From Singulisphaera sp. (GTDB lineage Bacteria; Planctomycetota; Planctomycetia; Isosphaerales; Isosphaeraceae): a stretch of DNA of 32,129 bases. Under the pieces are notes generated by a model, which worked only from the letters and a program-made list of their open reading frames with translations, did not search any database and was not told where the DNA came from. Below, piece by piece: positions 24,635 to 31,183 of this stretch. How positions within the stretch are numbered: position 1 is the first letter of the stretch; every line of letters starts with the position of its first letter. The stretch covers positions 1 to 32,129 of the forward strand of contig DAIDJG010000602.1 of the NCBI GenBank assembly GCA_027451445.1, read 5' to 3'. The translations under genes and the position numbers were made by a program.

Positions 24635-25138
24635 TTACACCGTCGGCAATTTCCAGGGGTCGCGATACGGCCGGCTGAGTTGCGCGGAGGCCTCATCGTC
24701 CCCGATGATCTGTTCCGTCCGCGGATCCCAGCGCAGCCGTTCGCGCCCAAGGCGCATTGCGATATTACCGAGGTGGGCGATCGTGATTGAACGGTGGGCC
24801 ACCTCCACCGGCGCCGCGGTGGGCCCGCGCGAGAGCACGCAGTCGGTGAAGTTCCGGAAGTGATTCTCACTGGCATAAAGGTGGATCTCGTCCGGCCCGA
24901 TCACGCTGTCCACGAGCGATTTCGGGTCGGTCTCGAGCTTGCCGCGATTCGCGTAAACCGTCCCCTCGGTCCCCTGCCACGTGACTCCCATGCGTTCCTT
25001 GTTCGAGACAATCATGCGCACGCCGTCTCCGTAGACGGCTTCGAACGAATACTCGGTGGCGGTGTTCCAGAGCGAATCGGGCGGAAAGGCACCTCGTGTG
25101 TTGCGGATCTCGATGGGGCCGGTGAGCCGACGAGGGAG
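24635..25138 (-). pseudogene. C-terminal remnant of a Gfo/Idh/MocA oxidoreductase
   Basis: The last 167 codons of the frame ending at 24635 are clear Gfo/Idh/MocA C-terminal sequence: TGPIEIRNTRGAFPP, WQGTEGTVYANRGKL, ENHFRNFTDCVLSR, EVAHRSITIAHLGNIA. The N-terminal NAD-binding half is missing. Upstream of about 25138 the same frame runs on through low-quality sequence (GSRPCLERLQPFGCW) and then a palindromic repeat, with no GxGxxG motif in any frame. It is therefore a truncated gene. The loss may be linked to the repeat insertion at 25375-25500. Confidence 0.8.
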
Positions 25139-25336: not shown

Positions 25337-25374
25337 ATATACATACGTGTTTTCTTTAGGGAAGCAATAGGATA

Positions 25375-25500
25375 CCCCTCGTTCCCACGCTCCCGCGTGG
25401 GAATGCCGTCTTGGCCACTCCTGCGGCCGCATCGCCCCGACTCGAAGCGACGCAGTGCGTCGGGGACTGCATTCCCACGCGGGAGCGTGGGAACGAGGGG
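25375..25500. repeat. inverted pair of palindromic (REP/BIME-like) repeats
   Basis: The 32-bp left arm (25375-25406) and right arm (25469-25500) are exact reverse complements, separated by 62 bp. Each arm is itself a hairpin: TTCCCACGC and GCGTGGGAA pair around a 4-nt loop. The spacer contains a further dyad, CCCCGAC with GTCGGGG. Two inverted copies of a palindromic unit are the architecture of BIMEs mobilised by RAYT (TnpA-REP) transposases. I recall the GTTCCCACGC/GCGTGGGAA unit in several bacterial phyla, unchecked here. No transposase gene is in the window. Confidence 0.85.
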
Positions 25501-25937
25501 GATTCGCTTCGTTTGGCGGAAACATCCAACTGTGCAAATACCACAATCTATCAAATCATGTGAGTTAAGTAATCGCCACCCCAGGATGCGGTGTAGGAGC
25601 GCGGGCTCCGGCTCATGACGCGTCGGACATACCCCCGCGCTCTCCGTAACAACGAACCAAAACGCGAGACTTTGCCGTGTAGGCAATTGATGTCGATCGC
25701 ACAAGACTCGACGTTTGCGGATGAGGGATTTTACGAGCGTACGACACACGAAAAACCTGTACGCGCCGAATCCCCACGGGTAAACAGCTCTGAATCCCTG
25801 ATAAGCCTTGGTTTTTGGAAACTCAATCATGAACCGGATCACCGATCCTGGCCGATGAATCGATGGATTCGGCGAAGTCGGAGCGGCGGGTACTCTCATC
25901 GCGCCGCGGGACTTTTGACGTGACGAGGTGTGAAACG

Positions 25938-27750
25938 ATGGAACGATCCACCTGGGCACGAACGCCCCTGGCAGCCTTGCTGCTCTCCTCGGCCGGGCTG
26001 GCTTTCGGCGCCGGGAAGCCGTCGCCGGTCCTGCTAGCGACTGGTGCGCCGGTGCCTCCTCCCGCGAGTCCCCGACTCTCGCCCCCCGCACCACCCACAG
26101 TCGTGACCTCCGCGATCCGGCCGCCAGGGCCGGCCGCGCCCCTCGCAGCGCCTGGGCCAGGGGCTCAACCAACGGGTATCCCCCCGACGGGGCGCATGGA
26201 AGATGAGACGACGACCTCCGCCCTTCCGACCGGCCTGAAGCTCAAGCCGGCGCCGCTGGAGCCGACGGACCTTCAGTTCCCGATCGACCTCGCCACAGCC
26301 CTGGGGCTATCCGACGCCCGGTCGTTGATCGTCGCCGCCGCGCAGGCCGGGGTCTGGGTCGCGGAAGCCGAGCTTCAGCGCTCCAAGGTGCTGTGGGTGC
26401 CGATGCTCAATATCGGCTTCGATTACACCCGGCACGACGGCGGCGGCCCGGACTTCAACAAGGGCATCATGACCGCACCGAGCGTAAACTTCGTCTACGG
26501 CGGTGCCGGCATGTGGGGCGAGATGGATGGTGTCAACATCGCTACCTCCTATTTCCAGCCCTTGGTCCAGCGCCAGGTGCTCAACGCGCTGCAGTGGAAC
26601 ATCGAGTCCGCCAAGAACGATGCCCTGATGCAGACAGCAGATGCTTACTTTAGCGTCCACCGGGCGCATGGAATTTACTCCGGCGCCCTCCACAGCGTCG
26701 AACGCGGACGGGACCTCGTCGATCGCATCGCGAACCTCAGTCGTGAATTCGTCCCCAAGGTCGAAGTCGATCGAGCCCGCAACATGCTCGCCGACCTCGA
26801 ACCACAAGCCGCCATTTATCGCCAGGACTGGCGTGTTGCGAGTGCGGACCTCACCCAGATCCTCCGGCTCGATCCCCGCGTGGTGATCGTTCCGTTGGAG
26901 CACGATCACACGCAAATCACCCTCAACGATCCGACGCGGGCCCTCGACGACCTAATGCCAATTGCGCTGACGAATCGCCCTGAGCTTGCCTCGAAGCAGG
27001 CTATGGTCCAGGCCGCGATCCAGGAAATCCGCCGCGAAAAAGCCCCGCTTTTTCCTTACCAACATCGCCATCAACGGCTTTCAGACGCCTTATGAAATGA
27101 TCCAGGGCGGCATCTTCGGCCTCGGCCCCAACAGCAGTCTCAATCAATGCGTGGCTCGTGCCGAACTGAGTTACCAGGCCATGTGGCAATTGGAAGGGTT
27201 CGGAATCGGCAATCTCGCCCGCATCAAAGCCCAGCGCGGCATTCAGTCCATGGAGGTCATCGAGTTCTTCAAGGCGCAAGATACAGTGGCGGGGGACGTG
27301 AACCGGGCGTTGGCTCGCGTTCAATCGGCTGCCGCACGCGTCATCCAGGCCAATCGCGCGATGCGAACGGCGATCATCACCTTCAACGGCAACTATGAAG
27401 GGCTCCAGCAGCGACCCCGGCTGGGCAACGTTCTCGTTCTCGTCAATCGCCCGCAGGCGGCGGTGTTTGCCCGCCAGCTTCTGTTCGTGGCATTCCAGGA
27501 GTATTTCTCGACGGTCGCCGACTACAACCGGGCCCAATTTGATCTGTTCCACGCGATGGGCTACCCCGCGCAGGAGGTCGTTGGCATGAGTCCCCCAGGC
27601 GAGATCATGCAGGTCAACACGGCGCAGCCGTCCTTCCTGCCCCCCAGTCGGCAACGGGCCGCCTCCGGCGACCCGGTAAACCCGGCTTTTCACGAAGTTG
27701 TCCAGGCGTTTCGGGTGTTCTCGGGCGCAGGAGAGGGCCTCGATCCATGA
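25938..27750 (+). pseudogene. TolC-like outer-membrane efflux protein, copy 1, frameshifted
   Basis: The frame from ATG 25938 (GAGGTG eight bases upstream) encodes a signal peptide (MERSTWARTPLAALLLSSAG), a Pro/Ala-rich linker to about residue 105, and a TolC-type domain up to EIRREKAPLFP near 27055. There it leaves frame and stops at 27095. The rest of the domain continues one frame over (TNIAINGFQTPYEM ... GAGEGLDP) to 27750. One surplus base in 27040-27062, among runs of A, C and T, explains the break. The repaired product would be about 603 residues. TolC proteins form trimeric outer-membrane channels for efflux or type I secretion. The downstream part shows no further decay, so a recent mutation or an assembly error are both possible. 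Confidence 0.85.
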
Positions 27751-28418
27751 GCAGACGTCGGTTACCCAGGTTTCGACCTGGTCTCGAGCCGTTGGAGCAT
27801 CGCGTCGGGCTCAGCAGCGGAGCGCACCCCGCCGCGGCCCACCAGGCCATAGTCCCCAACACGAAGAAACCGCTGCACGGTTACCTCGTGTTCCGCATCA
27901 CTCAGCCTAACCAGTACAACGACAAAATCGTCGGCCCGATGGGCCAGGTGCTGGTGCAAGCAACCCAACCCGTGCCGCGCCAGGTGTACAACGTGCTTTA
28001 CGTCACGGTCCGCAACGGGACGCTCAAGACGTTCACAGCAGCCGATGGGTTCACCGTCCGATTCCCTGGCCAGGCCACTCCCACGCCAATCCTGACCGGA
28101 AACGAGCAGTGGCTCCCGGGTCAGAACTACACCTTCTACGTCCTGACCAAGAAGTACTACCCGATCAATAACCAGGTTGCAGGAGGGTTCTTGTTCGACA
28201 TGGGTGGCGCGAAGTCTACGATAGTTCCAGGCCCGTCCGGGATTTTCCTGCGCGTTACCTACAACCCGGCGACATTCCCGAAAACCCTCGATTGGATCGT
28301 TCTCCACGGCGCCGGCGCCCAGGGAGGGATCGGAATCACGTACGGATTGCCGGATACGGCGATCAACGAGTTTCTCCCCGCAATTACACACCGGAAAGAC
28401 TTCGGCGGCTACTTCTAG
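27747..28418 (+). CDS. secreted protein with planctomycetal LEPLE N-terminal motif
   Basis: 223 residues. The N-terminus MSRRRLPRFRPGLEPLEHRV carries the LEPLExR motif (13-19) that marks many planctomycete extracellular proteins. The rest is beta-rich and Tyr/Asn/Gly-rich (QYNDKIVGPMGQVLVQATQ, YTFYVLTKKYYPINN, GITYGLPDTAIN) with no recognised enzyme motif. Its ATG overlaps the TGA of TolC-like copy 1 (ATGA), so it is probably translated by coupling. That link to an outer-membrane channel suggests a surface or exported product, which is inference. Confidence 0.8.
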   Translation: MSRRRLPRFRPGLEPLEHRVGLSSGAHPAAAHQAIVPNTKKPLHGYLVFRITQPNQYNDKIVGPMGQVLVQATQPVPRQVYNVLYVTVRNGTLKTFTAADGFTVRFPGQATPTPILTGNEQWLPGQNYTFYVLTKKYYPINNQVAGGFLFDMGGAKSTIVPGPSGIFLRVTYNPATFPKTLDWIVLHGAGAQGGIGITYGLPDTAINEFLPAITHRKDFGGYF

Positions 28419-28532
28419 CCAGGCTCGGTGAGTGCTGATTCGGCTGGGCCTCGACGGAACGAGGATTGGCCGAGCAGGGGCGGATGTCGCTGACCACCCC
28501 GAAAAGACCAAGGAGGGAGAGGGGTCCGTCTT

Positions 28533-30164
28533 ATGAAGGAAGGCAGAGCCTGGTCTTTAGTCGCCACGGCCGCTGCGCTGGAGTGGCGGGCCAACGCACC
28601 CGCCGCAGCGCAGACCAGCGGTCCGGGGAGTACACTCCTCGCGCCCCCGGCCGCCTTACCTCGGCCTCCATCCGTCGATGCCAACCGGGGCACGAAGCCG
28701 GTGATTACCGTGTCGCCCGCGGCACTGCCGTCGACGGTCTCCCCCATGATCGAGCGACTCATGCAGCAGCGGGGAGCCAGTTTACCCCCGCCCGATCCGA
28801 CCCGGCGACCCATCCCGCCGATTGGATCACCGAGCCCCGTCCGACCACGGCCCGGGGCCACGCTGGCCCAGTCGGGCACGAGGCCCGGCACGCCGACTCC
28901 TGCGACGCCAGTCGCCACCGAGTTACCCCCGCTACCCGAGAGAGCGGAGCCGAACGCTGCTGATTTGGCCGCCTTCAGCTTAAAGCCCGCGCCCATACAA
29001 CCGACCGACCTCGCGTTTCCGATCACCCTGGCGACGGACTTGAGGCTCTCCGACGCTTGTCCGCTCATGGTCGCCGCGGCACAGGCCGGTGTCTGGGTGG
29101 CTGAAGCGGAGCTCGTGCGGGCGAAAGTCTTGTGGGTCCCGATGGCCATCTTCGGCGTCGACTTCCTGCGACATTACGGCGTTGGCCCTGACTTCAACAA
29201 GGGCATCATGACCGGCCCCAGCGTAAACTACTTCGAGGCCGGCCCAGGTGCTGTCCTCTTCCTGCCGCTGACCGACGCCTACTTTCAGCCTCGCGCCGTC
29301 TCCGATCGTCAGGAGCGGCGCGTCGCCAGCGCCGACCTGACCCAGACCCTGCGGCTCGACCCCCGCGCCGTGGTGGCTCCGCTCGAGCACGACCACGCCC
29401 AGGTGACACTGGTCGACCCGACCCGATCGCTCGACGACCTCATGTCCATCGCGCTCGTGAATCGTCCTGAGCTCGGCTCGAAGGCCGCTCTCGTCTCGGC
29501 GGCCGAACAGGCGCTCCGCCGCGAGAAGATGCGGCCGCTCATCCCCACGCTCCTGCTCGGCGGCTTCCAGACCCCGGCGATGTATACGCAGATCGGGCTC
29601 TTCGGCCTCGGACCCAACAGCAGCCTCAACCAGTTCCGTTACCGCGACGACGTCTCGGTTCAGCTCATCTGGCAGCTCGAAGGCTTCGGGATCGGCAACC
29701 TCGCCCGGATCAAAGCCAAACGCGGGGAGCAGTCGGACGCCATCATCAAGCTCCGCAAGGTCCAGGATATGATCGCGGGGGACGTGAATCGTGCCCAGGC
29801 GCGCGTCCAGTCCGCGGCGGCACGCGTCATCCAGGCTGACCGCGCCTTGCGTACGGCCATCATCACCTTCAACGGACACCTTGAAGGACTCGAGCAAACG
29901 CGGCGGCTGGAAAACGTCCTGGTTCTGACGTTCCGCCCGCAGGAAGCCGTGTATTTTTTGGAGCAATTGAACGTCTCGTTCGATGAATACTTCACGACTG
30001 TCGCCGAGTACAGCCGGGCTCAGTTCGACCTGTACCACGCAATTGGCTACCCCGCTCGCGAGATCGCGCTGAACAATCCGCCTGGTCCGGTCCAGGAGGT
30101 CGACACAGCGCGACCCGCCTATCTGCCTCCAGTCGGCAATGGGTCGCCCCCGGCAAGGCGTTGA
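28533..30164 (+). CDS. TolC-like outer-membrane efflux protein, copy 2, lacking 81 residues
   Basis: A 543-residue paralogue of copy 1, colinear with it from KPAPIQPTDLAFP onward (shared GPDFNKGIMT, GLGPNSSLNQ, QLEGFGIGNLARIKAKRG, RVQSAAARVIQA). At residues 250-256 (YFQPRAV; nt 29289-29291) it joins directly two positions that lie 81 residues apart in copy 1. The frame is kept but part of the helical hairpin is lost. The N-terminus (MKEGRAWSLVATAAALEWRA) is a poor signal peptide: its hydrophobic core is short and followed by Glu-Trp-Arg. A 120-residue Pro-rich linker follows. A purine-rich ribosome site precedes ATG 28533. It may be non-functional despite the open frame. Confidence 0.85.
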   Translation: MKEGRAWSLVATAAALEWRANAPAAAQTSGPGSTLLAPPAALPRPPSVDANRGTKPVITVSPAALPSTVSPMIERLMQQRGASLPPPDPTRRPIPPIGSPSPVRPRPGATLAQSGTRPGTPTPATPVATELPPLPERAEPNAADLAAFSLKPAPIQPTDLAFPITLATDLRLSDACPLMVAAAQAGVWVAEAELVRAKVLWVPMAIFGVDFLRHYGVGPDFNKGIMTGPSVNYFEAGPGAVLFLPLTDAYFQPRAVSDRQERRVASADLTQTLRLDPRAVVAPLEHDHAQVTLVDPTRSLDDLMSIALVNRPELGSKAALVSAAEQALRREKMRPLIPTLLLGGFQTPAMYTQIGLFGLGPNSSLNQFRYRDDVSVQLIWQLEGFGIGNLARIKAKRGEQSDAIIKLRKVQDMIAGDVNRAQARVQSAAARVIQADRALRTAIITFNGHLEGLEQTRRLENVLVLTFRPQEAVYFLEQLNVSFDEYFTTVAEYSRAQFDLYHAIGYPAREIALNNPPGPVQEVDTARPAYLPPVGNGSPPARR

Positions 30165-30232
30165 TCGTCACGAGCGGTGTGAAAAACGCGATCGACTCGA
30201 AATCCACGGACCTTTTTTATAGGAACTCGCCC

Positions 30233-31183
30233 ATGATCGCACGCGGACAGGTTGCGAGAAGGCCGTCATGGAAGGCGGTTGCCCTGACTTGGGTCACCGT
30301 CGTCTGCACCGGATTGACCGCGAGGGCAGGGGATGGCGAATTCTCATACCCTGCGCCGGCGATGACGGAATGTTCGTGCGGTAAGACGCACGCCCACCAT
30401 CATCGTCACCAAGGGCCCGGCCTCGGCACGCTCGGCTATGGTCCACCAGGCCTTTTCCCGGGCTTCCAGGGATTTGGGCTCGGCTATCATCTGGGCTACG
30501 GCTACGGCGGCTCGGCTCTCGGCGTCGGCGCTGAGGGGGGATACCCGCTTTACGGCGGCCCGGGCTACCCTCATCCGTGGCCCGTATTGAACCGGCACCT
30601 CGCCACGGAACCGTTCTTCTACTACGGAGGCCCCGGCTATCCGACCCCGGACCAACCCAACTACTTCGGGGGCACCGGTCCCCTCGTGAGCGACCAGCCC
30701 GTCGTACAGGTCGGCGAGCCCGCGTACGAGCCCGGCTACGGCGGGTTCAGTGGCGGCCCGCCCAACGCGGAGGCCGTCTTCGCACCGTTCGCGACGGAAG
30801 TCGGCGAAGGAGCGCGACTGCGACGCCACGCTCCTGGCACTCCCAACGCTCCCGCGGCGCCCGCCTCACCGGCAACTCCTCCCCGCGAACCGGAAGCCTC
30901 GGCGCCGGCAACACACCCCAAGCTCGGCATCGACACGGAACTGTTCAACGATGGGTCGGGCCGTCGTGGGCTCAAGGTCGCGAGCGTCGCTGCCGGAACT
31001 CCCGCCGAAAAGGCCGGCCTCCGTCCGGGCGATCTCATCCAATCGGTCAATGGGTACCACACAACGACTGCCGGCAATCTTCCATGGATCGTGGACAATG
31101 CAGCGCCCGACAAGGTGCTCACGATGAACGTGTACACCACCAGCGACGGCAAGGAACGGACACTCAAGGCCGAGCTTCGCTGA
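30233..31183 (+). CDS. secreted His/Gly/Tyr-rich protein with C-terminal PDZ domain
   Basis: 316 residues; ATG 30233 has AGGAA nine bases upstream. Signal peptide residues about 12-32 (SWKAVALTWVTVVCTGLTARA). Just after the cleavage region is a Cys/His cluster, CSCGKTHAHHHRHQ (47-60), a plausible metal site. Residues about 61-175 are Gly/Tyr/Pro-rich and probably disordered (GYHLGYGYGG, YGGPGYPHPW). After an Ala/Pro linker, a PDZ domain spans 231-316 (LKVASVAAGTPAEKAGLRPG, IQSVNGYHT). The PDZ may bind C-termini of envelope proteins. It follows TolC-like copy 2 by 68 bp and is probably in the same unit. Confidence 0.85.
   Translation: MIARGQVARRPSWKAVALTWVTVVCTGLTARAGDGEFSYPAPAMTECSCGKTHAHHHRHQGPGLGTLGYGPPGLFPGFQGFGLGYHLGYGYGGSALGVGAEGGYPLYGGPGYPHPWPVLNRHLATEPFFYYGGPGYPTPDQPNYFGGTGPLVSDQPVVQVGEPAYEPGYGGFSGGPPNAEAVFAPFATEVGEGARLRRHAPGTPNAPAAPASPATPPREPEASAPATHPKLGIDTELFNDGSGRRGLKVASVAAGTPAEKAGLRPGDLIQSVNGYHTTTAGNLPWIVDNAAPDKVLTMNVYTTSDGKERTLKAELR

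Follow-up and report, generated by a model that had tools for sequence, protein, structure and literature searches.

What is a locus that encodes two TolC-type channels and two exported proteins, with no pump beside them, doing in the genome of a planctomycete? The window analysed here, a stretch of 32,129 nucleotides from Singulisphaera sp., carries such a locus, which a preliminary description made from the sequence took for a possible export system without a pump of its own. Comparison with relatives, all of them Isosphaeraceae and among them Aquisphaera insulae JC669, leads us to a different answer: the locus is probably a copy, detached from its pump and decaying, of an RND efflux cluster specific to this family.

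Organization of the locus

Four genes lie on the plus strand between positions 25938 and 31183 in the order OMF1, LEPLE, OMF2 and GY-PDZ, separated by gaps of 70, 114 and 68 bp. The first (25938–27676) and the third (28533–30164) correspond to copies 1 and 2 of a TolC-family outer membrane factor (OMF), and in both of them a Pro-rich stretch precedes the core. The second (27747–28418) encodes an exported protein with the LEPLE motif (RPGLEPLEHR) and a beta-sandwich domain of about 180 residues. The fourth (30233–31183) encodes a protein with a signal peptide, a Gly/Tyr-rich core (about 30410–30742) and a C-terminal PDZ domain (about 30917–31174; PF13180, E 6e-10). The order, strand and close spacing of the genes, the LEPLE motif, the PDZ domain and the Pro-rich stretches had been recognized in the preliminary description. 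It had likewise reported that neither pump nor adaptor is encoded nearby, and this is borne out within the window, where no RND pump and adaptor accompany the OMFs and the window proteins tested gave no RND, ABC or HlyD match. Promoter and terminator scans remained at chance level.

An RND efflux cluster in relatives

The LEPLE family was found in 16 of 45 Isosphaeraceae genomes, with one weak match in a further genome (G008), and in no genome of other families within a class-wide sample of 199 genomes. The neighbourhood is conserved, as the preliminary description had wondered, but only within the Isosphaeraceae. Moreover, the phylogenetic profiles of LEPLE and of the OMF clade to which the window copies belong, far from being unrelated, are identical: among 59 genomes, the same 11 have both families and the other 48 have neither (11/11 versus 0/48; Fisher p 4e-12, a value that ignores genome relatedness). 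The suggestion that the locus had not been described before also stands, insofar as the neighbourhood is restricted to planctomycetes and a literature search, covering open-licence papers only, found no description of the cluster.

What does not stand is the view that the locus has no pump. An AcrB-type RND pump and a HlyD-type adaptor (RND-MFP in the gene orders below) are part of it in 12 of the 16 LEPLE-bearing genomes, and for this reason we do not regard it as a new pump-free export locus. The pump of the relatives belongs to the AcrB family (PF00873, E 6e-165), while the adaptor matches HlyD_D23 (E 8e-26) and scores above the cut-off of TIGR01730 (RND_mfp family). Seven genomes (G001, G024, G029, G031, G062, G063 and G064) carry the one-strand arrangement RND-MFP-OMF1-LEPLE-OMF2-GY, and in five more the RND-MFP genes are convergent or rearranged next to the cluster. 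In G004, G035 and G066 they face OMF, GY, LEPLE and OMF genes on the opposite strand, and in G005 and G061 an RND-MFP-TPR-OMF-OMF array faces LEPLE. In G007 and G014 the cluster lies on short contigs without a pump gene; in G033, LEPLE and GY stand alone and the OMF pair is found elsewhere.

The outer membrane factors of the cluster

Sequence searches of the OMFs against solved structures gave no significant TolC match, and it was the fold search alone that found TolC: with the model of L087, an intact orthologue of OMF2, all 37 PDB matches at E up to 0.001 were TolC-type channels. The model displays the two-repeat beta-barrel and alpha-hairpin fold, its confidence being low outside the helices. 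For residues 24–156 the confidence is for the most part very low, as one would expect if the linker is disordered. The preliminary description had drawn attention to the Pro-rich stretch that separates the signal peptide from the core; intact relatives have it too, in varying length, and it characterizes the clade and not this window in particular.

A second clade trait is found at the other end of the protein. Each of the 38 intact clade OMFs examined has, at its C-terminus, a version of the tail VDTxRPxYLPPVGNGPPPATR, which in the window is encoded at 30096–30161 on the plus strand, at the end of OMF2 (EVDTARPAYLPPVGNGSPPARR). When ten genomes were scanned with a DNA pattern of this tail, only these clusters and paralogous OMF pairs were retrieved, plus one control hit. 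The GY-PDZ proteins of G005 and G007 (L080, 12240–13604, and L082, 6764–7711) end in the OMF tail as well. We considered that these might be fresh copies of the adjacent OMF tail; however, the DNA shows silent differences from the neighbouring OMFs, and since identity within a genome is only 0.73–0.79, the copying is not recent. The C-terminal tail of OprM provides a precedent for partner recognition (PMC8277102), and by analogy the conserved tail of the clade OMFs may have the same role.

In the OMF tree, paralogues from the same genome frequently group with each other, as in G005, G007 and G066 (L080, L082 and L103), which suggests that the tandem copies undergo gene conversion or concerted evolution. 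An ancient and essential split between OMF1 and OMF2 finds no support in such a tree.

Probable decay of the window copy

In the present assembly neither OMF of the window is intact. The preliminary description treated copy 1 as a single gene, but the reading frame that opens at 25938 ends at 27095 and homology goes on in two other frames: the tblastn pieces 26217–27008, 27052–27645 and 27641–27676 are in three different frames, the first change falling between 27008 and 27052 and the second near 27641–27645. OMF1 scores 35.8 bits against PF02321 (OEP), above the cut-off of 22, compared with 40.7–49.5 bits for intact relatives. It groups with OMF1 of G001, with weak support. The frame of OMF2, the orthologue of OMF2 of G001 (support 100/97), is open throughout, yet lacks 81 residues (243 bp) that are found in all 16 intact OMFs aligned. 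The deletion junction, after YFQP, maps by alignment to 29280–29303, and the score against PF02321 is 15.4 bits, below the Pfam cut-off. The lost segment corresponds to residues 260–340 of L087, which include the greater part of the long helix 252–319 and the start of the return helix 325–360. A protomer needs two alpha-hairpins, and on this TolC-fold model the deletion is therefore predicted to leave the one of repeat 1 largely missing. For the channels to borrow a pump encoded elsewhere, as had been proposed earlier, they would still have to fold in spite of the damage.

The OMF pieces have also accumulated substitutions. Departures from otherwise invariant or conserved columns amount to 7.1, 8.8 and 11.5% in the three window pieces, as compared with 0–4.9% in 38 other clade OMFs. 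Part of this excess reflects a genome-wide faster rate in the host genome, since its paralogues on another contig, C97, also have longer branches in the OMF tree than their counterparts in G001. In contrast to the OMFs, the LEPLE and GY genes are intact, and because of this some function may persist at the locus. The window LEPLE departs from conserved columns at 5 of 52 positions, ranking first, but this barely exceeds the 4 of 48–50 seen in several intact clusters, and we draw no conclusion as to decay of LEPLE itself.

The only close RND pump of the host genome (75% related) is on contig C97, where an adaptor, a TPR protein and a pair of intact OMFs accompany it. Could the damage then be an assembly or sequencing artefact, with an intact OMF1-LEPLE-OMF2-GY cassette working with the pump and adaptor of C97? 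Both frame changes of OMF1 fall in C runs and, in a fragmented assembly (10.9 Mb in 622 contigs), could be sequencing errors; the integrity of LEPLE and GY and the presence of the C97 pump would fit as well. We nonetheless consider this explanation unlikely. Homopolymer errors do not explain a loss of 81 residues that keeps the frame, the raised substitution at invariant sites affects all OMF pieces independently of the indels, and elsewhere in this assembly, on contigs C97, C77 and C361, long genes have open frames.

Possible traces of rearrangement, too, are found at the locus. Directly upstream of the cluster, the minus strand bears what is left of a Gfo/Idh/MocA oxidoreductase gene (24650–25042), namely its C-terminal part (PF19051 profile positions 130–253 of 254). 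This remnant is followed, before OMF1, by a palindromic dispersed repeat (25372–25503) with 39-nt arms that are 95% complementary and with 93 matches in the genome. Remnant and repeat are consistent with a rearrangement at the place where relatives have their RND-MFP genes. The repeat itself looks like a REP- or MITE-like element.

On contig C77 (L010), a second RND pump with adaptors is surrounded by two more tandem OMF pairs, and a different exported protein, of LEVLEKR type, adjoins one of these adaptors. Tandem OMFs and LEPLE-like neighbours may thus be a more general feature of these genomes.

The LEPLE and GY proteins

Neither the window LEPLE alone nor a set of 13 orthologues gave an NCBIfam match or a convincing Pfam match. 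By eye, the motif might be likened to that of proteins with the LEPR-XLL N-terminal domain, but none of the 13 members convincingly matches a curated family model. The structural model has a beta-sandwich core (pLDDT 69); an attempt to read a function from this fold was unsuccessful (Foldseek returned nothing with E below 0.1, and VIA Z values did not exceed 3.3).

As for the last gene, which had been introduced as encoding a PDZ protein, the domain is real but does not define the family. Inspection of the sequences found it in G000 (the host genome), G001, G029, G031, G035, G005 and G007, and found it absent from G024, G033, G063, G064, G066, G004 and G014, that is, from about half of the orthologues. 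The conserved part is the Gly/Tyr-rich core (GFGLGYHLGYGYGG...GGPGYP), and the protein would be better named Gly/Tyr-rich exported (GY) protein, with PDZ as an optional addition.

Interpretation

The explanation that we favour starts from the observed conservation, gene order, co-occurrence, layout and homology of the cluster, and from the OMF damage in the present assembly. The intact cluster consists of an RND pump and a HlyD-type adaptor followed by, or head-on to, two TolC-type OMFs, LEPLE and GY; it would act as a tripartite efflux pump driven by protons, with LEPLE and GY as putative envelope accessories of its channel. In the host genome, pump function is now probably served by the RND-adaptor-TPR-OMF-OMF locus on C97, which would have left the window copy free to decay. 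It is tempting to go further and to picture, in intact relatives, a six-part envelope machine in which the RND pump uses two alternative or mixed channels, the tail acts as a docking tag read by envelope partners (the adaptor, GY-PDZ or LEPLE), and LEPLE and GY are working parts and not bystanders; this extension is speculative and, in our opinion, improbable as a whole.

Alternatively, the locus may be of a type I-like kind or otherwise dedicated to protein export, its channels exporting or anchoring LEPLE, as the preliminary description had proposed. The place of LEPLE, which in most genomes has OMFs on one or both sides, might hint at this. We regard this reading as very unlikely: the neighbouring transporter in relatives is an RND pump and not an ABC exporter, the cargo known from RND pumps is small molecules and metals, and G033 keeps LEPLE and GY away from any adjacent OMF. 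Although these genomes contain many TolC-type channels and PDZ domains, chance or generic synteny of four unrelated envelope genes is scarcely credible when LEPLE lies beside a clade OMF in 15 of the 16 LEPLE genomes, across about ten genera and in rearranged order, and when the two phylogenetic profiles coincide.

If the locus is indeed a decaying copy of the efflux cluster, the window illustrates the decay of an OMF cassette that has no pump. The envelopes of planctomycetes are unusual, and few studies have addressed their efflux machinery. With its defined components (RND, adaptor, two OMFs, LEPLE and GY), the intact cluster makes it possible to ask, in cultured Isosphaeraceae, whether additional exported proteins can become parts of an RND pump and whether the choice of docking partner depends on a short OMF tail.

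Comparison with known systems

As in MexAB-OprM, AcrAB-TolC and CusCBA, an RND pump, a HlyD-type adaptor and a TolC-family OMF are encoded together in the relatives, and a TolC fold is predicted for the intact OMF. Unlike these systems, the cluster has two OMF genes and two extra exported proteins, and its OMFs bear long, low-confidence and probably disordered Pro-rich N-terminal linkers as well as a lineage-specific C-terminal tail. The pump differs from AcrB in TM4, where AcrB has VDD and the cluster pump VDE, within the motif GILVDE(A/S)T (RND genes of L074, L078, L079 and L083); consequences for the proton relay or the type of substrate are possible. GY recalls HtrA-type proteins in that its PDZ domain scores best against HtrA/DegP-type models; unlike them, it consists of a Gly/Tyr-rich exported carrier in which only PDZ domains match and no trypsin-like protease domain was found. 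An efflux operon whose OMF has an unusual extension is known from Burkholderia, namely the tetrapartite pump Bucl8-FusCDE (PMC7682875). The Bucl8 extension is, however, collagen-like and extracellular, whereas the OMFs of the cluster are extended by a Pro-rich linker at the N-terminus and by a short tail, and the additional components of the cluster are separate proteins. New here, then, are two accessory families tied to an RND pump, LEPLE and GY, whose putative functional connection with it is suggested by neighbourhood and co-occurrence, and the tail DTxRPxYLPPVGNGPPPATR, which is present on every intact clade OMF and on two GY-PDZ proteins.
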